Assembly: GCF_026151205.1 (NCBI RefSeq)
Contig: NC_087072.1
Coordinates: 21,728,103 to 21,792,102, forward strand
Reading direction: 5' to 3'
DNA length: 64,000 bases
DNA from: Bolinopsis microptera
Lineage: Eukaryota; Ctenophora; Tentaculata; Lobata; Bolinopsidae
In this document: positions 27,410 through 62,784 of the stretch, one piece after another
Position numbering within the stretch: position 1 is the stretch's first letter
How the letters are laid out: every line of letters begins with the position of its first letter
Made by a program: the position numbers and the translations under genes
The notes under the pieces: generated by a model
Database searches by the model: none
What the model was told of the DNA's origin: nothing
Seen by the model: only the letters and a program-made list of their open reading frames with translations

Positions 27410-29084
<1,675 letters not shown>

Positions 29085-37615: not shown

Positions 37616-38012
37616 CATAAACTTGTTACATTCAGTACAACCCAAGATGTCAGCCGACTAACAAAATTTTTTTTAAAAAGCTAGCATGTTCATAATTTTT
37701 CTAACGAGCATACTTAGGCTGTACGGAAATAGCTTTAATTCTACGTCATATTAAAAACTTTACATCATTTTTGCGATACAAAAATAAATTTTAAAATAAA
37801 TAACTCTTTTGCTGCTTAGGCGCGGCACCGCGCTTGACCCACATGCTATACAGCGTGTAGCAACACAGCGCTGAAAACAGAAAATGAAGAAGCTATAACA
37901 TATAAGCGGAGCGCCGCGCCTAAACCTAAAACCATAAACTTTAAATATTGTCAATCTAGGTAAACTATAGGTAAAAATATAATATTAATCATAAGCTAAA
38001 ATGTACTAATCT

Positions 38013-38690
38013 TTGTATTCTAAATGGGGAACAGAACATGTAGAGACCAATGAACAAGCTGAAGAAGAAAGTACTAACGAACCTATGTCCAATGAACCTA
38101 TGTCGCCCAATATGGCCTCCCCAAATCCTAATAATCAGAAAGTATTAAACTCAACCAATTCTATCAAACCTCCATCATCTTCTTCGAGATATGACTTTCG
38201 GCGCCACATCAGAACAGAGAAACCCTTGTTAAATAGACCTCAAGTCCTAGAAGTAAACATCAATCATAAAACAAGAGTCGATAAGAAGAAAAAATGTAGA
38301 CCAAATGAGAAGGAGAAGATAGATGACATATGTCCTATATGTAAAACCAGAGTTGAATGGCATGTAGATGCTTTGCAGTGTGAGGAGTGCGAGGTTTGGA
38401 TTCATAAGGCCTGCTTGTGTATGAGTGATGAAGAGTATTTTTTTTTTATTTGAAAATTCAATTAATCATTATATATATAAATCAAGCGTTACATTTCAGC
38501 CATGCAAAATTACAATGACATATTTTGATATACTAAATGGTAAATGGTACTGCAATATAAGTTGCTTAATGTTTGGCCGGATGACAACTAAAGAGAAAAA
38601 TAAACTTGATTATATAATAATTAATTCGGCTGAACCAACACATAGCAAGAGCCACATTAACGTTGGGGCCGTCTACCAAATTTGAATGGC
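38013..38690 (+). pseudogene. PHD-finger fragment, probably from a LINE ORF
   Basis: Encodes a low-complexity N-terminus, a basic stretch (RVDKKKKCRPNEKEK), then CPICKTRVEWHVDALQCEEC with EVWIHKACL. After an AT-rich interruption near 38440-38510 the end of the finger, GKWYCNISC, follows in another frame. Cys4-His-Cys3 spacing is recognisable. CR1-like LINEs often carry such fingers; a host PHD gene fragment is the alternative. Stops and frame change suggest it is broken. It is opposite in orientation to LINE-1. Confidence 0.55.
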
Positions 38691-38858
38691 AAACATTAAC
38701 AAGAAATCAAACATATCATAAATAATTATAAGGATTTTGTTCATTACAATTCCGTCACAACTGATAAAGAAAAAAGAAAAGGACAAGCAGATAGGAAATT
38801 GGACGGACAGAATTGTAACCAACAAAAACAAATTTCTGAGACTCATAAGACTGATGAG

Positions 38859-40977
38859 CTAATCTGGCCAGACTGTATCGGCAGCCCAGAGGTACTTGAT
38901 CAGTTTGACCTTAAAAGTAGAAATCCGCTCTGACTGCCGGATACATACTGGTAGACTATTCCATTTCAGCATAGATCTATGAAAAAAGCTATTTCGGAAG
39001 GCATCCGAGCAGGGCACAGTGGTACTCATGTAAGTTGAAGTATCCGACATATCAATTATTTGAGCATTGTGCCTAGTGTATCGGGTGCCCTCTGGACGGC
39101 ATAGGACTATATATGTAGGGAGCGAAACTGGAATTATGCTATTCACTATTTTATAGAAGGTCATAAGATCGTTATAAATAAACTTCTGTTTAACAGGGAG
39201 AATATTTAGTTTCTTTTGCTCTGTAGCAAGTCTATCGTCATTATAACTGGAGTAAGGTTCACCATTGATCCATTTAATAGCCCTCTTTTGGATAGCAACA
39301 AACTGTTGAAGATGAGTTGCAGATTGAGGGGACCATATGACAGAACAATGTTCAAATATAGACCTAATTAACGCTAAATAGAACGATCTTTTCTGCCTTT
39401 TATCAGTAGTGAAATGACATGTTCTCTTAAGTAGTCCAAGTCTAGAGGTAGCTTTGGAAACAAGCGCTTTACATTGTGCACCCCAATTAAACCTGGAGTT
39501 TATTGCGACTCCTAAATCTGACTGAGAGGGCACAAAGTCAATATCACTTCCAGAAAGTTTATAAAAGAAGGTATTGAATGGCAAGTTATCCAGCACGTTT
39601 CTTTGCAGGGACACAGAGAGGGCTTTGCACTTTTGTGGGTGGAACTTCATTCGATTTCTCACTGACCAATCATATAATCTGTTGATGTCATTTTGGATTA
39701 TGTGATGGTCAGGGTAACCAAGGATCTCCCTCCAAATTTTAGTGTCATCTGCATAAAGGGCGATATTGGTGCCTTGAGAGACACAGGAGAACATGTCATT
39801 TATAAATATTACAAACAATAAAGGGCCAAGTATAGAACCTTGAGGGACACCAGACCGAACTGGTAGAGAAGAAGACGTTTGGCCTCCTATCACTACTTGT
39901 TGTTGTCGCCCCTCAAGATAGGACTTAATGAATTTAAGCATTAGTCCATCGACATTAAAAATATTCTTTAATTTACTTAAAATGAGGTCATGCGAAACGC
40001 TATCAAAAGCTTTCGCAAAATCAAAATATATTATATCAGTCCTGGACCTGTTATTCAATGCAAGTGCAAGATTGTCCGTGAAAGGTATCATTTGGGTTGT
40101 GCATGAACGTTCATTAACAAAACCGTGTTGTCGGTCATCCAACAGATCAGAACATGCAGCGTATAATGCAGTCTTTATGCACCTTTCAAAGACTTTCATT
40201 ACAAGAGATGTTAACGAGATAGGCCTGTAGTTCTCAACCGAAGACTTATCGCCCTTTTTGTGCACTGGTACTACAAGTGCCAGCTTCCAATCAGGGGGTA
40301 TGCATCCGCTCGAGAAAGACAGGTTAAATAAAACACTAAGTGGGTATGCAAGGCTTTGGGCACAGTTTTTGAGGACTCTCCCATGAATCCCATCAGGGCC
40401 AGGGGCCTTGTTAGGATTTAACTTTTTAAGAATCAACAGAACATCTTCTCTACTAAACACAAGACTTGAAAAACAATCATCACGAAAATCTATGTCAATG
40501 CCATAATCGCTCTCTTGAGAAAACTGCTCATAAAAATATTCGTTAAAAAGGGCAGCTTGATCAGATGGATTGTTTCGAAAGCGATTATGATATTTGACAG
40601 TTTCAGGGATCCTGGTTGACTTTGATTTAGATTTAACGTAGGTCCAGAATTTCTTGGAGATAAGAGCATCATCAGAGTCATCCTCAACACTGAGTCTCAT
40701 TCTTTCGTCCATCAAATTTTTAAATTTTGTGCGAAATGCACGAAACTTTTGTTTATGAGACTCAGAGTTGCTCCCCTTATGCCTTATTCTCCATTTCTCC
40801 TTATTTCGTAGGAGACGATCACATTCGGAGTCATACCATGGGGGCTGGAACTGAGACTTAATGGTCTTTTTAGGGATCCATCGGTCACAGGCTGCACCGA
40901 GAACTCCTCTGAATCGACTCCAGGCAAGATAAGGATCATTACACTCAAATATACTATCCCAATCGATGCTAAATAAC
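38859..40977 (-). pseudogene. LINE-1 ORF2, C-terminal part with reverse transcriptase
   Basis: Open frame from the junction at about 40977 to a stop at 38859 (the first ATG is only at 40715, but frame continues upstream, including ELFSIDWDSIFECNDPYLAW). RT motifs: NKAPGPDGI, NYRPISLTS, FDFAKAFDSVSHD (motif A), SGVPQGSILGPLLF (motif B), ALYADDTKIW (catalytic YADD), then DLGVAINSRFNWG. This is the downstream half of LINE-1 ORF2; the endonuclease half is at 45140-46260, and the two are separated by the insertion of LINE-2. CR1/jockey-like type. Confidence 0.88.
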
Positions 40978-43900
40978 TCAGTTAAACAAAAATTTCAGTT
41001 AAACAAAAATTTCAATTTTATGCCATTTATTACAGATTAAACAAGTTTACAATAAATCAATTTGATATTTAACGGAATCCTAATTCAATGTGCAGTATGG
41101 TTGTCACTCTTTAAATAGATTAGATATAGGTTGACGGGGCAAAGGAGTGTGCGTGCTGTTCGCTATTGCTCACACCAAACGGCAACCTAGTAAATGTTTT
41201 GTATGAACACCGGTCTCCATCACGACACAAAATTAGGATTGTAGAATTTATTGAATAACTATTAGTGCAGTGGAGGTAGCGGTGTGGTGCATTAATAGAG
41301 TGACAGCCTACTGATTTAGAGTTGTTTTTAAGTGAGCATAATGGGTGTATTTTTGGATCTAATGGCAACTTTAAAATTTGTTCTTTTAATCATTTATTAA
41401 ATATCAGTTTAAAAATATATAAATCTGGAATCTGTTCACTCTGTGAACCAGTCCTATAAAAATTTCAAAAACCCTCCTAAATTAAATATTAAAAACGTCT
41501 CAGTAATGGAAATAGTCATACAATTAAGAAATTATCCAAATTCTTAATATCTACCTAAGAGAAAAATACCTACCTAAGTCAATTTCTACCTGTAATACAC
41601 TAAATATTAGGTTAAATACATAGGTGGTGGAGTCAGCACACATTTACAAAAATCAAAATTGTTTAATAGGAGGAGCCTGTGGGCCGAGATCACTGGATTA
41701 AATTTGATGAAGGGGATTGTTTTCAAATGACAGCTGCATTATGTCATAATCGCTTGTGGTCCATGCCGAATCATTATAAGCATGTTGCAGCTTTAGAAGT
41801 GCCTTTTTCAGGCGACTTTTAGCAAGGCTAATCTTGTAGGAGTAGTCAAAGAGCTTAAGTTTAGGTGCAATTGTGTTCCAAATTTTGGTGGATCTTGATA
41901 TAAAGTCATTAGATGGGAGTTGTGAAATGATAGTGGTTTCCTTTCTAGAAGATGACTGATAATGCTGTTGCAGTGATGCTGGGCACCTTAGTTTTAGTAT
42001 TTTAAAAACTTCCATAAATGTGTGATATGTATATAAATTTTTGAAAGCCAGGATGTTTTGTTGCTTGAAAAGTGGTTTACAGTGCTCTAGTTGGAAGAAT
42101 GTATGGTCAAGTGCCTGGCTGTCAAACTCTCTTGTTCTTGCACATGTAAGGAACTTGTTTAGGTATGCCTCTTTATCACCAAAGAGGACCCGTACACAGT
42201 GCTTCTGAGACAGCCAGATACTTGCTGTCCTAAAGAGTGCTGCATCACCCCAAACTGAGATACAATATGTGAGGTGGGATTCAAATAGTGTGTGGTAGAG
42301 GTCTTTATGGAGTTCCTTTGGTACAGAGTCCCTAATTCTATTTAAGGTGGCAGAGGCATAGTTTAACTTTCGTTTAAGTGCTGTTATATGAGGCCCCCAG
42401 GAAAGCTGTTCGTCAATAACAACTCCAAGAAACTTAGTTGCTTTGGTTTTTTTAATTGGAAAGCCATCAATATGGAGTTGAAGCGAATCTGGCAATTCTA
42501 CTGGTTTACTAGCCTTTGGTTCAAAATGCATATAACAGCACTTTGACATGTTGATGTGAAGTTTGTTAAGGATCATATACTTTTTTATACAGCTTAGCAA
42601 TTTGTTGCCTTTCTCATAAGCTTCTTCTACAGTTTTTCCATCAATAAAAGTGTTGGTGTCGTCAGCAAATAGTATGAAAGTTCCTAAATCCGAGGAATTG
42701 GCAATATCATTTATGTATAGAAGAAAAAGGAGCGGTCCCAAAACAGAGCCTTGTGGAACTCCATATTTAATGATAAGGTTTTCGGATTTTTCATTAAGGA
42801 CTTCTGTATACTGTGTTCTATTTGATAAGTAGCTTTTAATAAGACAGTTTGCATTGCCTCTTATTCCATACCTATCTAGTTTTGTTAGGAGTGTACTATG
42901 GTCGATTGTATCAAATGCTTTACTCAAATCTATAAATATTCCTAGAACATGGTTTCGTTTTTTTATGCTATCTTCAATAATCCTAACAGAGTAGTTAACA
43001 GCATGGCTAGTAGAATGGGACTTGCGGAAGCCAAATTGGTTTTCATCAAGGATATTTTGTGACAGAGCGAAACTGTAGATACGGCTGTATATCACTTTTT
43101 CAAATATCTTACCAAATATAGGCAGTGTAGAGACAGGTCTGTAGTTTCCTACATCCTCTTGGTTTCCTTTCTTAAATATGGGAGTAACTTTCCCAACTTT
43201 CAAAACATCAGGAAATACCCCGCTCATCATGAGTTTGTTGAAATGTTGGGCTAAAACAGGGCAGATTAAATGAGCTGACTTTTTGATTATACGGATCGGA
43301 ATATCACTAGATTTGCCATTTTCCAACTTGGAAATTATTTCCATGAGCTCAGTATGTGAACAGTCAGATAGGAATATAGAGTTATTGTTGGATGGCAGGA
43401 GGTAGTCTTCAAATGTTGAAAATTCAGAAGCCTGTATAGGCAGGTCAGCTATTGATTCATTTAGAGTGGAGGCAATTGAGTTAAAGTATTTGTTGAACTC
43501 GTTTGCAATAACCCTTCTATCTGTTATTTTTCTGTTGTCGATTATAAATGAGGGTTTTATAGTTTTTTTACACTTCCCTCTAAGTTCATTAATGATCTGC
43601 CATGTCTTCTTACGGTCGTGCTTATTTTCTATGATTTGGTTGCAAGAGTAAGTATTTTTTGCAGAGTTAATTACAGATTTGAGGATCCTTCGGTATACTT
43701 TGAAGGTTTGTTCGAGAACATGGTCTCCATCAGGGTTTGCCTTAGTTTTAGATGTAATCCAGTTATCTTTTAATTCATGTTTTTTTTCAACGGCTGCTGA
43801 GATACTATCTGTTATCCAGGGGTTATTGATAGGATTCCGTTTAGTAGTTTTTGGCTTTACAAGTTTGCATGTTGCATCAAGTACACGATCAAATAATTTA

Positions 43901-45145
43901 GTAAAATCCGAGAATTCATGAGAAGTGTTGAGCTTTGAGAGGTCAGTGTTCAGTAGGGTTAGGAATTTATTAAGGTTGGCATTACTGAAGTCGTAGTACT
44001 GGACATGTTTTTCACTTTTTGGACCAACCTCAAATTCGATGTCAGTGAATTCAAATGTTGGAGCATGGTCACCAATTCTATCTGTTATACAACCTGAGAG
44101 AACACAGTTACCAGGGTCATTCGTGAGGATGTTGTCAATACAAGATGGTTTGCAATTTGGTCTCTCATGTGTAGGTATCGAAATAACGGGAGCGAAACCA
44201 TTTCTAAATAAGCATTCTTCAAAAAGAGTATAGTTGCCATGACCAGCATCACCATTCACTTTAAGAAGGTCAACATTAAAGTCCCCCATTATACGTACAC
44301 CAGATTTAGGGAGGAGTTTACATATGTGATCAAATGATTTAAGGAAATTATGAATGTCACCATTAGGAGGGCGATAGATGACCCCTGAGATGAGTGTGAG
44401 CTTGCTGGATGATTGAGTGATCTTAACAAAGATTGATTCAATATCAGGCGTGCAGTAGCCAAGATTTTCTATGACTTCTGCATTAAGGTGATTTGCTACA
44501 TACAGGGCAACACCAGTCCCTTTCAGCTTGTTCTCCTGAGTGACCTGATAAAAACTGTTGTATTGCGGTATTCTGTATAGTTCTTTAAGAGGTTCATCTG
44601 TGTTTGTTTCAGCGATACCAATTACAGAGAAATTTAGTTCAATCCGTTTGAGTTCAACATTAAGACAATCGAAGTTGGTTTTGTTACCATCTAAGTTGAC
44701 AAAGTAGGATGTGAATTTTGAGTGTGTGGATGAAGGATTACATGAGTTTTGAAGCTCCCTGACTACCCTATTAAGATCAGTTGTAGAGTAGCTCTGACAT
44801 TGGTCTAGAACATTCGAAATTTTGTGAATAGTTTCGTCATCACATCCACCTTCATCATCGTAGAATTTATCACCACCATCACTAATCATCCCAGAGAAGG
44901 GGTTGTAGCGTGGTATCACGTTCAGTGAACAAACCTTACATACCCATAGACCATTGGTGGGGCAGAAACCTGCTGCTTTAAAACATTTAGTATGAATAGC
45001 TGTCCGACAGGCTTCACATTCCAGTAGGGGCTGCCCAATGTTGATGGGCCTTGAGCATGGCTCACAGACCTCCTTAATTAATTTCATGATCATAGTTATG
45101 TGTCGGTTAGGTTGGACCAGTGGATCCAACCCTCTGTGCTGACTC
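40978..45145 (-). mobile_element. LINE-2: full-length-looking CR1-like LINE nested in LINE-1
   Basis: The insertion splits LINE-1 ORF2 between SEVSRE and LFSIDW. The 5' end lies about 50 nt before the first ATG. The 3' end carries a repeated TTTTTGTTTAACTGAAA block and no long poly-A. The shared GAG at both junctions could be a minimal target duplication. A truncated second copy of its 3' end lies at 22232-22312. Confidence 0.82.
41698..45093 (-). CDS. LINE-2 ORF: PHD finger, APE-type endonuclease, reverse transcriptase
   Basis: One uninterrupted frame of about 1,131 codons from the ATG at 45093 (open slightly upstream). Order: Cys/His PHD-like finger (CEPCSRPINIGQPLLECEAC ... GLWVCKVC), APE-type endonuclease (IGIAETN, GVIYRPPNGD, MGDFNVDLLK, IGDHAPTFEF), RT (NYRPVSTLPIFGKIFEK, FIDLSKAFDTIDH, YGVPQGSVLGPLLF, LFADDTNTF with FADD as motif C, FLGVVIDEQLSWG) and a C-terminal domain. 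The endonuclease nicks target DNA and the RT copies the RNA at the nick. Intactness suggests recent insertion. PHD fingers are known in CR1-like elements. Confidence 0.92.
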   Translation of the reverse strand: MIMKLIKEVCEPCSRPINIGQPLLECEACRTAIHTKCFKAAGFCPTNGLWVCKVCSLNVIPRYNPFSGMISDGGDKFYDDEGGCDDETIHKISNVLDQCQSYSTTDLNRVVRELQNSCNPSSTHSKFTSYFVNLDGNKTNFDCLNVELKRIELNFSVIGIAETNTDEPLKELYRIPQYNSFYQVTQENKLKGTGVALYVANHLNAEVIENLGYCTPDIESIFVKITQSSSKLTLISGVIYRPPNGDIHNFLKSFDHICKLLPKSGVRIMGDFNVDLLKVNGDAGHGNYTLFEECLFRNGFAPVISIPTHERPNCKPSCIDNILTNDPGNCVLSGCITDRIGDHAPTFEFTDIEFEVGPKSEKHVQYYDFSNANLNKFLTLLNTDLSKLNTSHEFSDFTKLFDRVLDATCKLVKPKTTKRNPINNPWITDSISAAVEKKHELKDNWITSKTKANPDGDHVLEQTFKVYRRILKSVINSAKNTYSCNQIIENKHDRKKTWQIINELRGKCKKTIKPSFIIDNRKITDRRVIANEFNKYFNSIASTLNESIADLPIQASEFSTFEDYLLPSNNNSIFLSDCSHTELMEIISKLENGKSSDIPIRIIKKSAHLICPVLAQHFNKLMMSGVFPDVLKVGKVTPIFKKGNQEDVGNYRPVSTLPIFGKIFEKVIYSRIYSFALSQNILDENQFGFRKSHSTSHAVNYSVRIIEDSIKKRNHVLGIFIDLSKAFDTIDHSTLLTKLDRYGIRGNANCLIKSYLSNRTQYTEVLNEKSENLIIKYGVPQGSVLGPLLFLLYINDIANSSDLGTFILFADDTNTFIDGKTVEEAYEKGNKLLSCIKKYMILNKLHINMSKCCYMHFEPKASKPVELPDSLQLHIDGFPIKKTKATKFLGVVIDEQLSWGPHITALKRKLNYASATLNRIRDSVPKELHKDLYHTLFESHLTYCISVWGDAALFRTASIWLSQKHCVRVLFGDKEAYLNKFLTCARTREFDSQALDHTFFQLEHCKPLFKQQNILAFKNLYTYHTFMEVFKILKLRCPASLQQHYQSSSRKETTIISQLPSNDFISRSTKIWNTIAPKLKLFDYSYKISLAKSRLKKALLKLQHAYNDSAWTTSDYDIMQLSFENNPLHQI

Positions 45146-46260
45146 CCTAGACACCTCAGAATTCAGGCCCCTAAAATTACCTTTACTATAATTAAAGATC
45201 TTTCTTTTAGGCTGCTTAATATACTTGGTCTTAATATCAATGTCAAATGTGATACAAAAGTGGTCGGACATACACATTTCGTTTTGATCTAAAACTTTAA
45301 CATTCTTAATAAGGTTTTGAATGTTAGTGAACACAAGATCTAAGGTGTTGCCTGACTTGTGAGTAGGGGAGCTAATAAGTTGTGTATGTCCGAGGTAGGT
45401 CATCAGTAAGGTCATCAGTGAGAAAATTAACAAAGCTAGAATGTAGCTGGCAAGATGACTGACCATCTGGCCAGGAAATCGAAGCCAAATTAAAGTCACC
45501 TACCAGAATGTGCCTTTGCAATTTTCTGGCAGATGCTAAAGTAACAAAATGTTTCTTGAAAGATTCAAAATTATCTAAGCCAAGCGTTCCTACTCTATAA
45601 AATGTTGATATACAAAAGTTTCTTCCACACTGAGTCTTAATTATGATGGATAATAATTCAGCTTGAACACTAACTTTAGAGAACTTTAGAGAACTTTAGA
45701 CTCGAGATATCAATGTCTGTTCTATGGGCAATCAGAACACCACCACTGTTTTTTCTGAATTTCTTGGGCTGGGTTGCATCCACTGGATGCGATCTTAAGG
45801 ATCGGTCAAGCCTAAATACTTTGTATTTGTCAGGGAGCACCTCATTACTGAGAATGGAATTTTTCAGCCATGTCTCGTTTAGAATAATGATGTGAGGCTT
45901 ATGTTTGTAGATATAACCATGGAATTCATGTATCTTGGTCATATTTAGTGGTGGTGTTCCTGATGCTAAATCGCGTGTATTTAGGAAACCATGGACATTA
46001 TTGTAAACAACGGATAAATTTGGTCCAGGGTTCAGTAAGGAACAATTACAAATTACTATCAGGGAAATATTAAGGAGAGATAGAAAAACCAGACCACACC
46101 TAGACATGACCCCAAGCCAGCTGCTGGTTATACCGAAAAGTAACTTAACAGTCTGTTTCGGTGACATGGTAGGTGACAGTTCGGTTTTTGTGGTAGATAG
46201 CTCAATTTTACAGAAATTGCAGCTAAGGCTGTCCCAATGCCCCCTCCCCCCTATACACAA
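45140..46260 (-). pseudogene. LINE-1 ORF2, endonuclease part, broken frame
   Basis: Reads NNVHGFLNTRDLASG, PHIIILNETWLKNSILSNE, NSGGVLIAHRTDI, RHILVGDFNLASISWPD, THKSGNTLDLVFTN and SDHFCITFDI, an APE-type endonuclease series (NxR-like start, ETW, GDFN, SDH). Two frame breaks are visible. One, near 45676-45700, is caused by extra copies of TTCTCTAAAG; the other, near 45405-45425, by a repeat of ACTGATGACCT. The frame ends at the LINE-2 junction. Confidence 0.85.
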
Positions 46261-46764
46261 GTTTAAAGTGTCTGAGAAAAATGGTACAAAATATTACCAT
46301 AAAGTAAAGATTTATGGATGACCTCAAACATGGTACAGAGTGTATTTTAGGTTGTAGGGGAGCACCAGGGAGTATATTAGCATCGATAGTCAAAGAAAAT
46401 ATATACAAAATAACATAAAAATAAAATATACCCAATAGAGCACATAACATATGACGAGACAGAAGACAGGACAACAAATTTTCCCCATTACCTCTATTAC
46501 TTTTACTGATGATAACATACCTAGAAAACATACCAGTTGCAACACGGTGTTGTTGAGCCGATATTCCCATGGAACTTTAAAGTATATTATTAACAGAATT
46601 GTGTCTCGCCGTTGTGTTTTGTTAGGTATTGTGCTATAATATGAAGTAACATACATTATGCTATCACTTCGTTTGAATACATATAAATAACATCCAAATG
46701 ATCAGATCCAATAGGATACTGATGCAGACAATGAAAAATTTAAATATTGAATTGAATTACCACA

Positions 46765-48276
46765 TCAGTATCCCAATGGATTAAACCACTTTGAGTGTAT
46801 GATTCTGAGATAGAACTTTGCCAACACTGGCATCCCAGCCTTGGGGCTGGGATGAATGTCATAAAAGCCCCTATTGTCACATTTAGGAAATAATCTCTCG
46901 TTTCTGTTTCCATAGCGGTCTAAGAAAGCCCAAAAAACATCAAGGTAAAACAGTTTATGCCTAGAGCAGCGATCAAAGATCAAATTATTCATAGCACAAA
47001 CATTACCAGGGATTTTATCTTGTCCGTTCGGGTGGACTGGTGGAATAGCTTGTACAAAAACACGTGCATTTGGATAAAGTTTTTTTGCTGTCTTCATAAG
47101 GTCACTCACAGGGGTCTTGAGATGATTGACACCCTGGGTACAGTACCGGATGTCGTTGGCACCGAAGCTTAAGAACAGTTTCTTTACCTGCACAAGAGGG
47201 TTCTTTGTATGAAAGGCCTCAATAGATTTCTGTATAGCTGAGATCTTAAGCCCACCCTTAGCTATGTTGGTGACAGTTTCTTTACCTCTACTGAGGCGAT
47301 CAGCGTCCAATCGAGCAGCAAAGGAGTCACCAGCAATGAGGATGATAGACTTCTGGTGTTTTTGAGAGTCTGTGATGGGAGCTTTTGGGGGTACCTTATT
47401 AGGACTGTCGGATGTAGGAGAGGGAAGAATAGGAGATGAAGGGGAAGAGAAAGGTGTGGTTAACTTTCTGAAGGAGAGACTATACCTCCAACAAATTTCA
47501 TTGTCAGAAGGTGCAACTCCTGGGGCAATCCTGTGCCTCATGACTTGCTGTGCACCAGGCTTCATGATGTTCAGTGTGCCATTGGTGGCAGGAAGGGTGA
47601 AGTCTGCGTTAATCAACTCTTGGGCTGGCCTTGACCTAGAGGCCCTAGTTGTGCGTTGTTCTACTTGGGTTGTATCGAGCACAAACTCAAGTGACCGCGG
47701 AGCCCCTATTGAGTAAGTGCAAATGGAGCTGGACTGTGATATTATTAGGTCTTCATCGTCTTTATGGAGGCTTAACTTAGCTTGCTGAGTGTCGTACCTA
47801 GTAACAAGGCAAGCATCCATGTTGTTGGTGGTGGAGGGGAGGTCATTAATAAGTCCCATCAACTTAAAGATGCTAGGGAAGTTGTTGATGGGATGTGGCT
47901 TGTTGACTATGTTACCAAAGCAGTAGTCTTCTGATGAAGGGCTTAGCCATAGGGTGTGGACTTTATTAGATTTGCCTTCAAGATTCATTGAATCTAATTC
48001 TTCTTTGATTTTCTGGAATAGATTTTCATCCATTCCAGGGAGAACTGGAACGTGCTCTACGAGCGTATGTGGGCTATACGAGACATTTTGAACAGAAGTT
48101 TCCTTCTTCGTTTTCTTTTCCTTCTTCTTTTCATCTATACGTACTATTTTAGAAGCAAGCTTTTTCTCTTTCAGACTGTCCAGGATACTCTGAGTAAGGA
48201 GGGTATGCATGTGTTGCTTTACTTCAAGAGATAAGTTTTGCAGTAAGGCGAGGAAGTTGGCGGGCAGTGTTGGCAT
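46765..48276 (-). CDS. LINE-1 ORF1: AlkB-like 2OG-Fe(II) dioxygenase fused to SGNH hydrolase
   Basis: 503 codons from ATG, intact. Residues about 40-60 are a Lys-rich stretch. Residues about 105-272 are AlkB-like: CLVTRYDTQQ, LSLHKDDEDL (H171 and D173 as iron ligands), YSIGAPRSLEF, GTLNIMKPGAQQVMRHRI (H249), RYSLSFR (R264 and R270, the R-x5-R for 2-oxoglutarate). A Pro/Ser linker follows. Residues about 310-495 are an SGNH/GDSL hydrolase: IAGDSF (catalytic Ser), KGG, FGANDI and YDIHPSP (Asp and His). Esterase and PHD domains are known in CR1-like ORF1 proteins; the AlkB fusion is unusual. AlkB enzymes demethylate alkylated nucleic acids, so a role in protecting the element's RNA is an inference. 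It is the first ORF of LINE-1, transcribed leftwards. Confidence 0.9.
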   Translation of the reverse strand: MPTLPANFLALLQNLSLEVKQHMHTLLTQSILDSLKEKKLASKIVRIDEKKKEKKTKKETSVQNVSYSPHTLVEHVPVLPGMDENLFQKIKEELDSMNLEGKSNKVHTLWLSPSSEDYCFGNIVNKPHPINNFPSIFKLMGLINDLPSTTNNMDACLVTRYDTQQAKLSLHKDDEDLIISQSSSICTYSIGAPRSLEFVLDTTQVEQRTTRASRSRPAQELINADFTLPATNGTLNIMKPGAQQVMRHRIAPGVAPSDNEICWRYSLSFRKLTTPFSSPSSPILPSPTSDSPNKVPPKAPITDSQKHQKSIILIAGDSFAARLDADRLSRGKETVTNIAKGGLKISAIQKSIEAFHTKNPLVQVKKLFLSFGANDIRYCTQGVNHLKTPVSDLMKTAKKLYPNARVFVQAIPPVHPNGQDKIPGNVCAMNNLIFDRCSRHKLFYLDVFWAFLDRYGNRNERLFPKCDNRGFYDIHPSPKAGMPVLAKFYLRIIHSKWFNPLGY

Positions 48277-48282
48277 CTTGTT

Positions 48283-48779
48283 GTGGAGTGTGGGAGGATC
48301 GGGAGGAGACTGGGTGATCCGGATAAGAGATCAACAGCAGGATGTTTCAGTGGCACCGTTGTAAACCCTAGCAATCTGGATCTGAAACAGTTAATAGGCC
48401 AGAGATTTATAGTTCAGAGTGAAAAAAATTTGAATTATAATGAACAGAGGTGTTGTAAAGAACTCAAGAACTGTATAGCAGAAAAAAGAATGCAATACTT
48501 ATCTAAAGGAGAAGTAGCTAAAAGGAGTTACTAAATTTCAAACATCACTAGATCTCTAACAATAAAACTAACCTCGTACCAGACCGCAGGAGCCCTGGTA
48601 GTACAAGACTACCAGGGCAATAGGAAGAAACGATTACCACCTCCACAACCTGCCATCTAACTCAGATCCATCACACCCAGGACACCGGCAGACTTTACTC
48701 CAACGGATTACTCATCGGTAGCCATACCTAGGATATAAAAACCAGTGAAGATGATGAATGGTATTGTGACTGCTGCCAG
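48283..48779. other. junction between LINE-1 5' end and the RLE LINE
   Basis: Contains the presumed short 5' UTR of LINE-1 (minus strand) and the 5' side of the RLE LINE (plus strand). A perfect inverted pair CCTGGTAGT/ACTACCAGG lies at about 48593-48617. Just before 48780 the plus strand reads EDDEWYCDCCQ in frame with the RLE ORF, a possible remnant of a Cys-rich finger. Confidence 0.45.
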
Positions 48780-49474
48780 TTGAATAGATCAAATAATTTG
48801 ACGTGGGGTACCATGGTTGGGGAAGGGTGTATACGGTCAGAACTTACGGGGATATATGATGAAATTATTACGTGGTGTAGGAATTTGTTTATGGTGCCAA
48901 GGGGTAAGAGTGGGGAGAAGTTTATCAAAGAGTTGACACGACTTTTGTACCTTTTTGTGAATAAAACGGCCTGGGAGAGTCTTTCATTGCAGCTAGTCCA
49001 TATATTTATCCCTATTATGTTACAGAAGCCTTCATCTAAGTCAAAAGCTAGAGACAATGCCAAGTACCTGGTAGATAGACTAGAAAAGTGGAAGGATGGC
49101 GACCTCAATTCCCTCATGGATGAAGCTCGTGTCATCCAGGAGAAGCTAAAACGAAGGAAAAAGTCTGAAGATCCATCGAAAATGAAAGGCTTTAGTAGGT
49201 TAATGATGGTGGGTAAAGTATGTCAGGCCATGAAGCTCATCAACAACGAAGACTCAGTTGTTGGGGTACACACATTAAATAGAAAGATAAAGAGTCTATT
49301 ACAAGAGAAACATCCTAAAGCTGAGACACCTCCAGCTGATATCCTTCTACCTATAACAGCGCCTCAGGCACAGTCGGTGATATTTGCTGAAATATCGGCA
49401 GAGCTAGTTGAGAAAGCGGCACTTCATGTTAAGGGCTCAGGTGGCCCAACCCATTTGGATGCAGATGGGTGGAA
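48780..49474 (+). pseudogene. RLE-type LINE ORF, N-terminal part, interrupted
   Basis: Open frame (no ATG needed; frame extends to about 48737) encoding a helical, Lys-rich region ending GPTHLDADGW. It resembles the region upstream of the RT in RLE-type LINEs found in corals and Hydra. The frame is cut at 49474 by the palindromic element; the same protein resumes at 54475 (W-KHILCSKAYGK). Confidence 0.78.
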
Positions 49475-49539
49475 AGGCCTCCCCCAGCCTCGGATCTTAG
49501 GATTAGATTTGCAAAAATTCCTGAGACACAGGTGCAAAA

Positions 49540-49860
49540 GTTAAGACAGCAGAATAATCCTAAGACAGCAGAATAATCCTAAGACAAAATTTAAGAAATC
49601 CTGAGACAGCGAAAAATCCTGAGACAAAATTTAAGAAATCCCGAGACAGCGAAAAAACCTGAGACAAAATTTAAGAAATCCTGAGACAGCGAAAAAACCT
49701 GAGACAAAATTTAAGAAATCCCGAGACAGCGAAAAAACCTAAGACAAAATTTAAGAATCCTGAGACGCGCGAAAAAACCTGAGACAAAATTTAAGAAATC
49801 CCGAGACAGCGAAAAATCCTGAGACAAAATTTAAGAAAACCTGAGACAGCGAAAAAATTT
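49540..49860. repeat. subterminal 40-bp tandem repeats, left arm
   Basis: About seven units built from CTGAGACAGCGAAAAA and CCTGAGACAAAATTTAAGAA. The inverse array lies at 53960-54420. Confidence 0.92.
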
Positions 49861-50096
49861 TAGATACAATTTATACAATAGCCACAAGAATATACATGGA
49901 TATTACATCTTTTAATTTCTTGCAAAGAATATAATAAATACAATATTACTAGGTATAGTAGGAATGTCAATAAGTCAATAGAATTTGTCTGAAACCTCTA
50001 TGTGCCTGCTAATGAAGTGAGTATCCCAGATCATATCTTTACTGGTAGGACTGTATAATGGGGGCCCGATGTTATAGCTTTATAGCGGACATCATC

Positions 50097-50117
50097 TCCC
50101 CCCCCCCCCCCCCCCCC
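50097..50117. repeat. poly-C tract in left arm
   Basis: About 20 C, mirrored by a G run at 53717-53733 in the right arm. Confidence 0.85.
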
Positions 50118-50667
50118 CTTACCCCTTCTTACCCCCAGTTCCATAGCGGATATTATGCCAAATTATTGGACGGAGATCGTCAACTAATATTTCTTCGGAT
50201 ATTTCTCCGGTTTGCAGTTCCATAACCTTATCCGGAGACCATCTACGGTAATTTTGTTGATTCTCACAGAGCAAAGTGCAAAGAAACTGCCGCAAACTGC
50301 TACAATCTCCGAGAAATATACTTATTGAGTTATTGACTAGCTTGCTAAAATTCATCGTCAAATTACCGCTGCTCGAGTTACCTAGCCAGGCCCATTTCAG
50401 TTTTGAGTACTGGAGTCGGTTATCTAATCAAAGCCTAGCTTTTTTGTAACTTGCAAGTGCTTTTGCGGATTGTCGTGGATTTCGGCAACTAGTCGTGGAT
50501 TTCGGCAATATTTTCAGATTATTCTTCAATGTCCTCAAACCTGAGCACTGGGACTACTTAAGTTTTTGCTACTATCTGAATTATTTGCTCAAGCTACTGG
50601 CTCGCTAGGTTCAAAGGTTTATTTCCTATTTATCATGAAAAAAAAATTGTGCTGGGTAAAAGTTTAC

Positions 50668-50745
50668 ACGGTGTTCACGCAGGTTAGAACTCCCGACCTC
50701 GCGCAGAGCTAGCCGATCGCCTGGCCGCTAAGCTACTCGGGTGAT
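50668..50745 (-). repeat. tRNA-like (SINE-type) sequence, left arm copy
   Basis: Minus strand reads GAGTAGCTTAGCGGCCAGGC (A-box-like) and GGGAGTTCTAACC (B-box-like, one base off). It mirrors the copy at 53099-53172. Confidence 0.55.
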
Positions 50746-51461
50746 GTACTCATGAAATTTTTGATGTAATTATATATTTACCCCTTTTTACCCCCAGTTC
50801 CATAGCGGATATTATGCCAAATTATTGGACGAGCAAAGTGCAAAGAAACTGCCACAAACTGCTACAATCTCCGAGAAATTCCCGGAGAGCTTCATCTCCG
50901 TATAACTGTATAATACAGTAGACGGAGCCGGAGAATCATCACCGTAGAAATGGACCTCCGTCTAATAATTTGGCATAATATCCGCTATGGAACTGGGGGG
51001 TTAATCTGATTAAAAGCTACAAAAAATTCCAGAAATGAGATGGCTGGTTAAAACCTACCTTTGGAAAGCTCTGATGAACCTACCCGTGGAGAAATAAACA
51101 CACTTAACTTCACCTCAATGGAGCAATAACTATTTATCGCTTATTACTTCATTTATTTTGGATGTACAGTGTGCTTCGTAACTAATTTATTATTACAAAG
51201 TTTACTTTCTAATAAGCTAAAACGACAACTAATCTTTCGTTTTACTCCCTACTGTACTGGTTTACTCGTCAATCCAGGTATATGAGAATGTGTGAGAATG
51301 GTCTTGAAACTCTGAAAAGAGGGAAGCAGTTTTGGGGACGGGGAGATTGAAGCAGGTGGCCCCCCGGCTTACAATTGACCCCCCATGCAATTACACTGAG
51401 TCAATTGATCTCAGTATAATAACATGGGGGTTAATTGTCGGGGGTCAATTGTCGTACTAAG

Positions 51462-51720
51462 CCCTAGGCTTGCGTCAAGGCGTAACAGATTTGCTGGGCA
51501 CTGCATGAGAGCTTCTGACCAAGTCATCTCCTCTATCCTCCCCTGGCGACTTACCCAGTCCGGCCGTGGAACTGTGGAAGGAGACCACTCACCTTCCTGG
51601 ACGTAGTAGCTCGTGACACTGGGCTCCAGTTGGACGACCTTCGAACTGTTATGTGCGATCAAGACGTGTGGAGGCAGACAGTGAATGGGAGTTCGATCGA
51701 GGATCGCCGAAAGTAAGTAA
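51462..51720 (+). pseudogene. LINE C-terminal fragment at the palindrome centre
   Basis: With frame breaks it reads RRNRFAGHCMRASDQVISSI, LPWRLTQSGRGTVEGDHSPS, then VTLGSSWTTFE- and DVWRQTVNGSS-like. This matches the RFAGHC...W...RG...D...WR C-terminal pattern of many LINE RT proteins. It lies between the two arms and has no mirror copy, so it entered or formed the loop after or during arm formation. Confidence 0.7.
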
Positions 51721-52267
51721 GTTGTTCAATCCCCCAGTACCTTTATTATTATAATTACCCTCCTAGGCTCCTACATCCTACCCGTTTTTGATGCTGTAAT
51801 CTTCCCGTCCCCAAAACCGCTAATTCCCTCTTTTCATAGTTTCAGGACCGTTCTAATACATACTCCTATACCTGAATTGACGAGTAATCCAGTACAGTAG
51901 GAAAGTTAACTTTGTAGCTTTTCAGAAAGTTAACTTTGTAGCTTTTTAGAAAGTTCGGAGTAATCACTCAGGTATAGTATCTCACAACGAAGCCCAATCT
52001 ACATCCAAAATAAATGAAGTTATAAGCAATAAATAGGCAGTTATTGCTCAATTGAGCTGAAGTTAAGTGTGTTTATTTCTCCACGGGCTAGTCCATCGGA
52101 GCTTTCCCAAGGTAGGTTTTAACCAATCTCATTTCATGACTGTTTTGTATCCTTTAATCAGATAAGGGAGGGGAAAGTGATGTCCACTATAACATCAGGG
52201 CCCCCATTATACAGTCCTACCTGTGAAGCTATGATCTGGGATATTCACCTCATTAGCAGGTACAATC
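51721..52267. repeat. diverged extra copy of arm sequence in the palindrome spacer
   Basis: Parallels the right arm at 52380-52760 and beyond: CTTCCCGTCCCCAAAACCGC, GACGAGTAATCCAGTACAGTAGG and GAAGTTAAGTGTGTTTATTT. More diverged than the arms are from each other, so the spacer holds an older or separate family member. Confidence 0.65.
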
Positions 52268-52744
52268 TAGGGCTTAGTACAACAATTAACCCCCATGTTA
52301 TTATACTGAGATCAATTGACTCAGTGTAATTGCATGGGGGTCAATTGAAAGCCGGGGGGCTTACAATAGGGGGGGGGGGTTCATTTGTCGCCCACCTGCT
52401 TCAATCTCCCCGTCCCCAAAACTGCTTCCCTCTTTTCAGAGTTTCAAGACCATTCTCACACATTCTCATATACCTGGATTGACGAGTAAACCAGTACAGT
52501 AGGGAGTAAAACGAAAGATTAGTTGTCGTTTTAGCTTATTAGAAAGTAAACTTTGTAATAATAAATTAGTTACGAAGCACACTGTACATCCTAAATAAAT
52601 GAAGTAATAAGCGATAAATAGTTATTGCTCAATTGAGGTGAAGTTAAGTGTGTTTATTTCTCCACGGGTAGGTTCATCAGAGCTTTCCAAAGGTAGGTTT
52701 TAACCAGCCATCTCATTTCTGGAATTTTTTGTAGCTTTTAATCA

Positions 52745-53052
52745 GATTAACCCCCCAGTTCCATAGCGGATATTATGCCAAATTATTTGACGGAGGTCCA
52801 TTTCTACGGTGATGATTCTCCGGCTCCGTCTACTGTATTATACGGAGATGAAGCTCTCCGGGAATTTCTCGGAGATTGTAGCAGTTTGTGGCAGTTTCTT
52901 TGCACTTTGCTCTGTGAGAATCAACAAAATTACCGTAGATGGTCTCCGGATAAGGTTATGGAACTGCAAACCGGAGAAATATCCGAAGAAATATTAGTTG
53001 ACGATCTCCGTCCAATAATTTGGCATAATATCCGCTATGGAACTGGGGGTAA
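52745..53052 (+). repeat. 0.3-kb inner TIR unit with a 95-codon frame
   Basis: Bounded by CCCAGTTCCATAGCGGATAT and its inverse, with further inverted pairing inside. A frame at 52775-53062 reads EFLGDCSSLWQFLCTLLC, then RRWSPDKVMELQTGEISEEI. Partial copies are at 50146-50330 and 50795-51000 (inverted) and 53521-53710. The frame continues into copies mainly because the copies are similar, so I do not claim a protein. Confidence 0.7.
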
Positions 53053-53098
53053 AAAGGGGTAAATATATAATTACATCAAAAATTTCATGAGTACATCA

Positions 53099-53172
53099 CC
53101 CGAGTAGCTTAGCGGCCAGGCGATCGGCTAGCTCTGCGCGAGGTCGGGAGTTCAAACCTGCGTTTAACACCG
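53099..53172 (+). repeat. tRNA-like (SINE-type) sequence, right arm copy
   Basis: A-box-like GAGTAGCTTAGCGGCCAGGC and B-box-like GGGAGTTCAAACCTG at tRNA-like spacing, with a Ser-tRNA-like long variable region. Flanked by a T-rich stretch. It probably derives from a SINE carried within the palindrome arms. Confidence 0.6.
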
Positions 53173-53959
53173 TGTAAACTTTTACCCAGCACAATTTTTT
53201 TTTTTTCATGATAAATATGAAATAAACCTTTGAACCTAGCGAGCCAGTAGCTTGAGCAAATAATTCAGATAGTAGCAAAAACTTAAGTAGTCCCAGTGCT
53301 CAGGTTTGAGGACATTGAAGAATAATCTGAAAATATCGCCGAAATCCACGACTATTTGCCGAAATCCACGACAATCCGCAAAAGCCCTTGCAAGTTACAA
53401 AAAAGCTAGGCTTTGACTAGATAACCGACTCTAGTATTCAAAACTGAAATGGGCCTGGCTAGGTAACTCGAGCAGCGGTAATTTGACGATGAATTTTAGC
53501 AAGCTAGTCAATAAATAGATTTCTCGGAGATTGTAGCAGTTTGCGGCAGTTTCTTAGCACTTTGCTCTGTGAGAATCAACAAAATTACCGTAGATGGTTT
53601 CCGGATAAGGTTATGGAACTGCAAACCGGAGAAATATCCGAAGAAATATTAGTTGACGATCTCCGTCCAATAATTTGGCATAATATCCGCTATGGAACTG
53701 GGGGTAAGAAGGGGTAAGGGGGGGGGGGGGGGGATGATGTCCGCTATAACATCGGGCCCCCATTATACAGTCCTACCTGTAAAGATATGATCTGGGATAC
53801 TCACTTCATTAGCAGGCACATAGAGATTTCAGACAAATTCTATTGACTTATTGACATTCCTACTATACCTAGTAATATTGTATTTATTATATTCTTTGCA
53901 AGAAATTAAACGATGTAATATCCATGTATATTCTTGTGGTTATTGTATAAATTGTATCT

Positions 53960-54420
53960 AAAGATTTTTCGCTGTCTCAGGTTTTCTTAAATTTTGTCTC
54001 AGGATTTTTCGCTGTCTCAGGTTTTCTTAAATTTTGTCTCAGGATTTTTTGCTGTCTCGGGATTTCTTAAATTTTGTCTCATGTTTTTTCGCGCGTCTCA
54101 GGATTCTTAAATTTTGTCTTAGGTTTTTTCGCTGTCTCGGGATTTCTTAAATTTTGTCTCAGGTTTTTTCGCTGTCTCGGGATTTCTTAAATTTTGTCTC
54201 AGGATTTTTCGCTGTCTCAGGATTTCTTAAATTTTGTCTTAGGATTTTTCGCTGTCTTGGGTTTCCTTAAATTTTGTCTCAGGATTTTCCGCTGTCTTAG
54301 GTTTCCTTAAATTTTGTCTTAAGAATTTTCGCTGTCTTAGCTTATTTTGACATCTCAGGTTCGCTTAAATTTTGTCTCAGCTTTTTTTGCTGTCTTAGCT
54401 TTTCTTAAGCAGTTTGTCTT
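53960..54420. repeat. subterminal 40-bp tandem repeats, right arm
   Basis: About ten units of TTCGCTGTCTCAGG and TTCTTAAATTTTGTCTCAGG, inverted relative to the left array, longer and more diverged toward the outer end. Confidence 0.92.
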
Positions 54421-54474
54421 AGGAATTTTTGCAAATCCAATCCTAAGATCCGAGGCTGGGGGAGGCCTGTGGAA

Positions 54475-56655
54475 GCACATCTTGTGCTCTAAAGCGTATG
54501 GGAAACTTCCTTTTCAACTCTGCGGTGCAATAGCTGAATTTGCAAAGCGTTTGTGTGTAGAGGATGTTAACCCAGAGAGTCTGAATGAGTTTGTGGCCTG
54601 TAGACTGGTACCACTGAATAAGGACCTGACGATAAGAGAGGTAATCCTGGTGTACGGCCGGTGGGGGTAGGAGAGGTTCTTCGGTGTATTGTTGGCAAGG
54701 TGGTTATTGGGGTAATTAAGGATGATATACAAGAGGCTGCAGGACCTCTTCAGTCATGTGCTGGGCTAGAGTCAGGCATTGAGGCATCCATCAGAGCAGT
54801 TAAGAGGACATGGGAAGATCCTAAGACAGAGGCAGTGCTTCTTGTTGATGCTGATAATGCGTTTAACAGGCTTAATCGCAAAGCAGCTATTCACAACATC
54901 AGGCAGCTATGTCCTCCGTTTCACCAATACCTGAAAAACACCTATCAGAAATCAGCCAAACTCATTGTCAACGACACATATTCGTGTGAGATAATTTACT
55001 CTGATGAAGGGGCAACGCAAGGGGATGTGGCAGCAATGGCAGAGTATGCTATCGGTATTCGTCCTCTTATCAACATCCTGGCCAGCGTGACAAAATTAGG
55101 AGAATTGATGCAAGCGTGGTATGCAGATGACTCTGCAGCAGCAGGTACCCTGAAGAAACTCCGGCTGTGGTGGGATTTACTCAGTGTGAACGGTCCTAAG
55201 TTAGGCTACTTCCCTAAAGCAGTGAAGACTATTCTTATCCTAAAAGAAAAATCGCTACTACCAGCAGCCACGTTTTTATTCAGAGAGACTGGTATAGAGA
55301 TCACATGTGATGGGGAGCGTCATCTGGGAGCAGTGATAGGTGGAGAGGAGGCTAGAGAGACATATGTAAAAAAGAAAGTAGAGAAATGGGTGAAGGATGT
55401 AGAAGAGTTGTCAGATATTGCCCTCGATGAACCTCAGGCAGCCCTATCAGGGTATACCAAAGCCCTATGTCATCGGTGGACCTTTGTGATGCGTACCATC
55501 CAAGACACTAAAGACCTCTTCATCCCATTGGAGAAGTGTATAAGAGAAAAGTTCATCCCTGCAATTATTGGTAGGAATGTGTCTGATCTGCACAGGAGAA
55601 TGTTTGCGCTACCTGTAAGATTAGGGGGGCTTGGTATTGTTAATCCAGTAGAGATCGCGGAGAAGGAATACCAGACGTCACTCAAGATAACAGAGGAGCT
55701 GGTTGACCTTATCTATCACCAGGAGACATCCCTGATGAAGTTGGATAAAATTAAGATAAAGGGCAGAGTAGATTGCCTCAAGTTAGTTAAAGAATTACGC
55801 TTGAAGAAGGAGCTTGCTGAGATAATGAGTGAAGTGGATGAGAATACCAGGGAGTCATTGCAGCTGGTACAAGAGCATGGGTCAGGAGCTTGGCTAACAT
55901 GTCTTCCCATTCAACAGCTAGGGTATGCTTACAGCAAGCAAGACTTCAGAGATGCTGTTCATCTCCGGTATGGTTGGGACATCCCTAACACCCCAAGATT
56001 CTGCGATTGTGGAGCCAAGAATGATCACAATCATATCCTCAACTGTAAGAGAGGGGGGTATGTGAACTACCGTCATAACAACGTGAGAGACTCCGTTGCT
56101 GAATACCTTAGGCTGGTGACCAAGGATGTGAGGATTGAGCCCCTTTTAACACCTATAGAATCGGCCAACTTCCAACAAAAGGGCAACAATGCTGATAAGG
56201 CTAGGCTTGATATATCAGCAAGAGGAGTGTGGAGCACATTTGAGAGGACTTTCTTTGATGTGCGCATTTTCAATCCTAAATCGCCTACATATCAAGGAAA
56301 GACCATGCCACAGCTCTACACTCTGCACAGGAATGAGAAAAAGAACCAGTACATGAACCGAGTGCTACAATTGGAGAAAGGGTCATTCGTCCCCCTTGTA
56401 TTTACCACTACAGGAGGAATGGCACCGGAGGCCAAGCGTTTCATAAGGAGACTTGCTGTGTTGATAGCCACCAAGACAAAGGAGGACTACAGCCAGGTGA
56501 TGTGTAACATCAGGACACGCCTGAGCATGGATATAATGAGGAGTGTGCTAGTAGCAGTTAGAGGTGTACGTGGAAAGGCAAAGAAGGCATGGACCGCCCC
56601 TATATCCAACGTCTCCTTCAACCTGATACCTGAGGAGAAGAGCTACGAGGGATAG
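54475..56655 (+). pseudogene. RLE-type LINE ORF, reverse transcriptase and restriction-like endonuclease
   Basis: Resumes the frame cut at 49474 (KHILCSKAYGK). A single frameshift near 54640 separates DLTIRE from NPGVRPVGVGEV; from there the frame is open for about 670 codons. RT: LLVDADNAFNRL (motif A), EGATQGDVAAMAEYAIG (motif B), AWYADDSAAAG (motif C YADD), GPKLGYFPKAVKT. C-terminus: CDCGAKNDHNHILNC (C-x-C-x6-H-x4-C), RHNNVRDS and LDISARGVWSTFERTFFDVR (D-x15-D), the order of RLE-type LINE endonucleases. The clade (for example Utopia- or R2-like) is not decided. Confidence 0.85.
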
Positions 56656-62488: not shown

Positions 62489-62784
62489 TGATATTGACGC
62501 AGGCGGTGTAACTATTGAGTTACGTTCGATTGAAATATTAAAACACTACGGTACTACATTTCACTAAACAAAACGACGGGGACACAGAAAGGAGAAGGAC
62601 ATTACACATCATACGGACGGAAGCTGCTGCTGAGTTGACGAGTATCTGATTGTATTAATTATGGGTTTCTTGTTCATTAAAATAAGTGTGATCATACTTG
62701 TAAAGTATATTGGGCTGACACAGCTGCTGCAAGGTTAACATTGGGGTCCAAAGCCGGGAGTGTGATACACGTTAAATTCAGTTT

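Follow-up and report, generated by a model that had tools for sequence, protein, structure and literature searches.

The window, a 64,000-nucleotide stretch of the genome of the ctenophore Bolinopsis microptera, carries a LINE whose first open reading frame (ORF1) encodes a protein made of a helical N-terminus rich in lysine, an AlkB-type dioxygenase and an SGNH hydrolase, fused in that order. Judging from profile matches and residue conservation, we regard this anatomy as close to certain. Sequence comparison further establishes that the pairing of AlkB with SGNH recurs in several LINE lineages of the same genome and, with the order of the two domains reversed, in Helitrons.

The ORF1 protein

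The features of the element, all on the minus strand, are as follows (coordinates are those of the window).

38438..48730, minus: whole LINE copy, full-length, with a younger LINE nested inside it; ends set from the flanks and from other loci
46768..48276, minus: ORF1, 503 aa (stop codon at 46765-46767)
48049..48276, minus: ORF1 residues 1-76, helical N-terminus with a Lys-rich stretch (KKKEKKTKKE), read from the sequence
47461..48048, minus: ORF1 residues 77-272, predicted AlkB-type 2OG-Fe(II) dioxygenase domain (PF13532, PHROG 21963)
47350..47460, minus: ORF1 residues 273-309, Ser/Pro-rich linker (6-31% identity to the other rows of its clade)
46768..47349, minus: ORF1 residues 310-503, predicted SGNH hydrolase domain with S318, G342, N374 and H475 (PF13472)
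45157..46293, minus: endonuclease part of ORF2, with two frameshifts, from six-frame reading (PF03372 at 0.0068 and PF14529 at 0.0037, both below cut-off)
40995..45156 (lower end approximate), minus: nested LINE of about 4.1 kb, 5'-truncated, its ORF2 (PHD, endonuclease, reverse transcriptase) open; placed by identity to loci L110 and L108
38862..40994, minus: reverse transcriptase part and C-terminus of ORF2 (RVT_1 1.1e-30, over cut-off)

The stop-to-stop frame that contains ORF1 is 521 codons long; the maximum among 200 Markov-1 simulations of the 3-kb neighbourhood was 193 codons. The original prediction, made from the letters and their translations, took this protein for an AlkB-SGNH fusion encoded by a LINE ORF1 and proposed a profile search of the 503 residues. 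That search bears the fusion out, with both domains above their Pfam cut-offs: the SGNH domain is reported from the full-length protein (PF13472, E 1e-9, 39.6 bits against a cut-off of 32.9, residues 322-479), and the AlkB domain when it is submitted alone (PF13532, 2OG-FeII_Oxy_2, E 1.6e-10, 42 bits against a cut-off of 31.2). A scan of the whole protein against Pfam (hmmscan, E up to 1) does not report AlkB. PHROG 21963, annotated 'alkylated DNA repair', also matches the AlkB domain (E 8.1e-11); the NCBIfam AlkB model falls far short (19.5 bits against a cut-off of 267), and phmmer with the single ORF1 sequence returned no AlkB among solved structures. The single-sequence AlphaFold2 model of the whole protein has a mean pLDDT of 34. 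We considered that the AlkB call could be an artefact of short motifs, and the PF13532 match of the domain alone rules this out.

The putative iron- and 2OG-binding residues of the AlkB domain are H171, D173, H248, R264 and R270, in the arrangement HxD...H followed by R-x5-R. Four of these had been named correctly in advance; the second iron histidine had been placed at H249 and is H248. All five are invariant in 43 of 43 rows when the window protein is aligned with AlkBs from viral contigs, which serve here as a yardstick and not as kin of the window domain (52 loci were found, of which 42 were aligned and ten near-duplicate or partial ones dropped).

The element, its copies and its relatives

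The element is a two-ORF non-LTR retrotransposon, in which an endonuclease and a reverse transcriptase (RT) follow ORF1 on the same strand; an endonuclease match lies behind ORF1 in 26 of 30 loci. Its layout, together with an LLNPGP motif that we take as a CR1/L2-like sign, points to a CR1/L2-like placement. The 5' end is at 48730, where matches also start in 20 of 29 other loci (window 48729-48730), and an A-rich 3' tail, seen as a T run on the plus strand, lies at about 38438-38447. At this T run a plus-strand frame breaks off halfway through a PHD-like finger (recognised by eye), and the rest of the finger resumes in the same frame at 48731-48732. From these flanking halves and the 5' start shared with other loci, we infer that a full-length LINE inserted into the frame of another element. 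No clear target-site duplication was found.

ORF2 of the window copy is broken by the frameshifts and by the nested LINE. One frameshift coincides with a 10-bp tandem duplication (45672-45700) in the endonuclease part; in most other copies the endonuclease region matches in one piece, and the RT part of the window ORF2 is 98-99% identical to that of ORF2 frames of 1170-1185 aa elsewhere in the genome. The nested LINE is 99.7% identical to L110 and 98.1% identical to L108 up to window position 45156. Since both of these relatives carry AlkB and SGNH in one frame, both LINEs in the window come from AlkB-SGNH families. The family of the nested LINE has a PHD-like finger at the start of its ORF2.

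The genome searched was one assembly of 264.65 Mb, in which 13 chromosome-size contigs (15.2-26.2 Mb) account for 258.07 Mb, or 97.5%. ORF1 gave at least 91 matches (85 of 616 candidates scored), and at least 19 copies, the window included, are open over residues 1-503 at 94-100% identity. All 19 therefore keep the N-terminal domain, whose absence from every related intact copy had been raised at the outset as a point that would tell against the fusion. The closest pair among them is 99.8% identical in DNA, and we thus regard the LINE as recently active. A further 27 ORF1 rows among the matches listed, at 37-48% identity, cover parts of both domains; 21 are stop-free and six have one to seven stops. 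Two other readings of the locus fall with the open copies: their number (at least 19) rules out that AlkB is confined to one odd copy and, at 94-100% identity, that ORF1 is a domesticated host gene.

A search with the RT gave at least 64 matches (63 of 6923 candidates scored), and joining ORF1 and RT matches by coordinate yields at least nine elements in which both ORFs are open. A full-length ORF1 accompanies 17 of the 64 listed RT places, a part with the AlkB residues ten, and a 3' part only eight; the remaining 29 have no ORF1 among the (incomplete) ORF1 matches listed. Among the 22 listed RT places whose ORF2 frame reaches 1156 aa or more, ten have a full-length ORF1 (one with a stop), four an AlkB-containing part, five only the 3' part, and three no ORF1 among the matches listed. 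These three start either within the final codons of ORF1 or in the spacer that follows it, and are thus 5'-truncated copies of the LINE. None of the 22 has an otherwise complete ORF1 that lacks AlkB.

More divergent relatives occur in the same genome. Seven further loci (L087-L091, L103 and L104) have the same AlkB-SGNH ORF1 layout with ORF2 close behind, and with the window they make eight rows in seven families, L089 and L090 (96-97% identical) being counted as one. The fusion next to an endonuclease-RT ORF2, which had been proposed as something to look for in related genomes, is thus found in six families beyond the window's own within this one. L087, L088 and L104 have open ORF2 frames of 1147, 1172 and 1178 aa, with endonuclease and RT above cut-off; ORF2 is broken in L089, L090, L091 and L103. 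In the AlkB domain L088 and L089 are 79% identical, and other pairs 28-49%. Compared with the window protein, the seven loci are 28-49% identical in AlkB, 27-54% in SGNH and 6-31% in the linker; the N-termini are 13-34% identical between rows, leaving out L088, which has only five aligned residues there. Full-length Pfam scans of five of these loci detect AlkB in two, L088 and L103, and none in L087 or L091; L104 gives a weak PF03171 match below cut-off. A profile built from the window and viral-contig AlkBs finds AlkB in all seven (7.6e-32 to 6.7e-26), and scores 6.1e-39 on the window ORF1, which is itself a row of the profile.

The substitution pattern of ORF1 shows purifying selection. Over the 19 open copies, with stop-bearing copies left out, dN/dS is 0.22 in AlkB and 0.15 in SGNH, and 0.32 and 0.31 in the N-terminus and linker. 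Between L088 and L089, dN and dS are 0.139 and 0.80 in AlkB, 0.095 and 0.91 in SGNH, and 0.286 and 0.60 in the linker. The near copies L089 and L090 show little constraint in AlkB (dN 0.021, dS 0.03), and for more distant pairs of families the comparison is saturated. The five iron/2OG residues are invariant in all eight rows, across seven families, as well as in 13 of 13 AlkB rows drawn from several LINE lineages.

The SGNH set had been described beforehand as complete-looking. Its blocks are indeed present, namely GDS (316-318), G341/G342, GAND (372-375) and D473-I-H475, and S318, G342, N374 and H475 are invariant in all eight rows. It is, however, less complete than that: the catalytic Asp stands two residues before the His instead of three, Asp-x-His replacing the usual Asp-x-x-His (found in L104 only among the eight rows), and it is not kept, the column reading D, D, D, G, G, G, D, W with the Gly rows being L088-L090. 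A shifted or missing Asp suggests that hydrolysis may be weak or altered. Close to the C-terminus, seven of the eight rows share a tail I/V-H-S-x-W/Y/F-F-N/D-P (window 46768-46800), which is absent from L104.

Searching the genome with PF13532 gave at least 151 places (150 of 587 candidates scored), the listed ones all over cut-off; the window's own family is not among the matches listed. We read 17 of these places, hand-picked for different frame lengths and so not a random sample. Two (L099 and L100) are candidate host AlkB genes with AlkB alone, and in 13 of the 15 others (L092-L098, L101, L102 and L108-L113) a single frame holds AlkB together with an SGNH-like part; L112 has its SGNH-like part in a separate frame, and L113 was read without its upstream part. 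The SGNH-like part scores between 9.8e-7 and 0.008 in L092-L096, L098, L101 and L102, in every case below the curated Pfam cut-off; that of L097 was recognised by eye alone. With a profile built from other families, L108-L111 score from 4.5e-19 to 4.8e-31, and shuffled controls gave nothing at E 1 or better. L096 additionally shows a PHD-like finger that scores below cut-off.

Two of these places, L098:3383-9901 and L101:2303-7999, both on the plus strand, are Helitron polyproteins with open frames of 3388 and 2459 aa. Their domain order is SGNH-like, AlkB, DUF6570 and Helitron_like_N, the last at 3.1e-22 and 2.6e-22 respectively. Comparable long AlkB frames lie at C3:14441692, C12:8338315 and C9:15868177.

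The window clade forms one group both in an AlkB tree and in an RT tree (100/99 each). The RT tree places AlkB-bearing LINEs in four lineages: this window clade, L093 with the nested LINE, L094/L095, and L097, the last on a long branch. The AlkB tree (30 rows, including nine of the 42 viral-contig AlkBs, and built without ALKBH5 or FTO sequences) neither recovers the AlkBs of these lineages as one group nor gives a resolved placement of the window clade against host ALKBH, Helitron and other LINE AlkBs. We therefore claim neither a single nor a repeated capture of AlkB. L087 and L104 fall in different places in the ORF1 and RT trees, in which some forks are weak; exchange of modules is possible, and we do not claim it. 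Beyond the host genome, no relative was confirmed in viral contigs with the whole ORF1, the AlkB region or the RT as queries, nor with the whole ORF1 in genome contigs or phages. The AlkB region alone matched four phage and two plasmid records, at E 1e-3 to 0.3.

Substrate class, function and known systems

We read the substrate class from profiles made of LINE AlkBs only, leaving aside one that was mixed with bacterial AlkBs. Against solved structures, a profile of seven window-clade AlkBs matches ALKBH3 (1.2e-13), ALKBH2 (1.6e-9) and E. coli AlkB (0.0022), while a 13-row LINE AlkB profile matches ALKBH3 (6.8e-32) and then ALKBH2, AlkB, ALKBH8, 6mA demethylases and ALKBH1. ALKBH5 and FTO both have solved structures; neither occurs among the 31 matches of the seven-row profile or the 44 of the 13-row profile up to E 0.1. 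By profile rank the domain appears to be ALKBH2/3-like, and nothing in these matches places it with m6A erasers of the ALKBH5/FTO type. ALKBH3 and ALKBH2, although the best matches among solved structures, are host repair enzymes outside mobile elements.

Two roles had been suggested at the outset, that the enzyme could mend the element's own RNA or could counter methylation by the host. It is the resemblance to ALKBH2/3, and not to ALKBH5/FTO, that leads us to favour repair. ALKBH2/3 and AlkB reverse 1-methyladenine (m1A) and 3-methylcytosine (m3C). Both modifications prevent base pairing and halt reverse transcriptases, and tRNA is treated with AlkB so that it can be reverse transcribed. The best mechanism that we can offer, and one to which we would give an even chance, is that the ORF1 protein clears its own template of such RT-blocking methyl groups (m1A/m3C). 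RNA binding is the role generally assumed for LINE ORF1 proteins, and here ORF1p would coat the RNA of the element, a step that is a guess given the fast-changing N-terminus. The SGNH part might bring the particle to membranes or assemble it, as proposed for the esterase of zebrafish ZfL2-1. The AlkB part, with iron, oxygen and 2-oxoglutarate, would strip methyl groups from the bound single-stranded template, m1A and m3C being the likeliest substrates if the chemistry is that of ALKBH2/3, and the template would be cleaned before the element copies it. The gain would be direct, since an element that needs reverse transcription would have the blocks removed by its own RNA-binding ORF1 protein. 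Helitrons are thought to move through, or to expose, single-stranded DNA, and could profit likewise. We hold it plausible, if somewhat short of an even chance, that AlkB-SGNH is a module common to four or more LINE lineages and a lineage of Helitrons, and that it rids their single-stranded RNA or DNA intermediates of alkylated or methyl-blocked bases. Demethylation of RNA in vitro is documented for the AlkBs of RNA viruses (PMC9289625).

A different benefit would arise if the host silenced the element through a regulatory methyl mark, m6A in RNA or 6mA in DNA, and the AlkB domain erased it, an anti-defence role of the kind proposed for the AlkB of orchid Gypsy elements. The ALKBH5-like protein of these Ty3/Gypsy elements has m6A demethylase activity in vitro (PMC9289625), the 13-row profile has a weak match to a DNA 6mA demethylase (8haz, 5.4e-4), and spread over several element lineages would suit an arms race. 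However, ALKBH3, ALKBH2 and E. coli AlkB (with ALKBH8 next in the 13-row profile) outrank the 6mA demethylases, and with ALKBH5 and FTO missing from the matches up to E 0.1 we consider such an anti-defence role unlikely. It is distinctly unlikely, in our judgement, that the AlkB fold is mainly a module by which ORF1p binds single-stranded nucleic acid, in place of an RRM or arginine-rich motif, with catalysis minor. Pfam gives neither an RRM nor a CCHC match for ORF1 up to E 1, in keeping with that role, but mere binding would not need the five iron/2OG residues that are invariant in all eight and all 13 rows, while the SGNH Asp, by contrast, is not kept.

Repair directed at DNA, either alkylated single-stranded cDNA or the target nicked in the course of insertion, would agree with the ALKBH2/ALKBH3-like profile rank and with the presence of the same domain pair in Helitrons, which move through DNA. 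We nevertheless think it very improbable, given that ORF1p of the LINEs studied so far is chiefly an RNA-particle protein and that the host, with its two candidate AlkB genes, is expected to supply ALKBH2-type repair. That AlkB was captured once by chance and has been carried without use is hardly credible: the near-copy pair L089/L090 shows little AlkB constraint, but passive carriage is contradicted by the dN/dS of 0.22 over 19 copies and by catalytic residues invariant in seven families, and the AlkB domain is also found in other LINE lineages.

ORF1 is the least understood part of LINEs. If the AlkB domain is indeed a repair enzyme conserved within ORF1, chemical damage or modification of the RNA template would be a limit on retrotransposition severe enough to have driven the evolution of a countermeasure, selfish elements would bring their own nucleic-acid repair, and the chemistry of the epitranscriptome would be tied to transposon fitness. 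It would also pose a directly testable substrate question (m1A/m3C vs m6A), and modified RNA could be read with AlkB and reverse transcriptase that are paired in nature. The occurrence of both domains in LINEs as well as Helitrons would clearly exemplify how unrelated mobile elements share domains.

Several known systems share parts of this arrangement. Zebrafish ZfL2-1, which has the type IV esterase ORF1 of CR1/L2/RTEX elements (PDB 4c1b), is likewise a two-ORF LINE with SGNH in ORF1 and an APE endonuclease and RT, and its N-terminus, with a coiled coil and an arginine-rich motif (PMC3905857), is helical and basic like that of the window protein; unlike ZfL2-1, the window ORF1 has AlkB between N-terminus and SGNH. 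The proposed role of the ZfL2-1 SGNH domain is at membranes (PMC4120745, PMC3905857). The window SGNH domain matches 4c1b weakly (phmmer, E 0.15), behind a bacterial-type esterase at 0.032, and in this weak alignment the places of the transposon-specific His191/Ser228 pair of type IV ORF1 esterases are taken by Ser and Gln. Phalaenopsis Ty3/Gypsy elements have an ALKBH5-like ORF2 (PMC9289625) and are thus also retrotransposons that encode an AlkB-family dioxygenase. Those are plant LTR elements with an ALKBH5-like m6A eraser in a separate ORF, whereas we describe an animal LINE with an ALKBH2/3-like AlkB fused in ORF1.

AlkB domains also occur in flexiviruses and other plant RNA viruses, for which a conventional repair role has been suggested (PMC544882). 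There too AlkB lies within a polyprotein of an RNA-using parasite, but host and genome type differ. We know of no SGNH partner of these viral AlkBs. Accessory enzyme domains have been acquired by TRAS and Jockey LINEs, which captured a viral helicase (PMC6338049), and by bdelloid LTR elements with a GDSL ORF3 (PMC5408684), in both cases other enzymes in other places. The words 'AlkB' and 'oxygenase' are absent from the main texts of PMC4120745, PMC3905857 and PMC5408684. Searches of open-access papers turned up no description of a LINE that carries AlkB; subscription papers, preprints and Repbase lay outside the search and may hold an earlier record.

Other features of the window

The plus-strand element interrupted by the AlkB LINE combines an RT-like frame, whose RVT_1 match is below cut-off, with a PHD-like finger. 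It lies in three pieces, at 38010-38453, 48732-49544 and 54347-56655, and is split both by the AlkB LINE and by a second insert. The latter, about 4.8 kb long (49556-54337), has inverted terminal arrays of a 40-bp unit (95% identity, 1276-bp inverted match) and splits the plus-strand RT frame between 49544 and 54347. On the minus strand, 58712-62545 is an open frame of 1277 aa that appears by eye to be a complete Copia-type pol. A 16-bp minisatellite of 28.9 copies (3404-3874) adjoins a CUB-like frame, and an astacin-like frame with the motif SIMHYG lies at 5443-5868, both frames having been recognised by eye. A pure (AG)70 run occupies 28942-29082.
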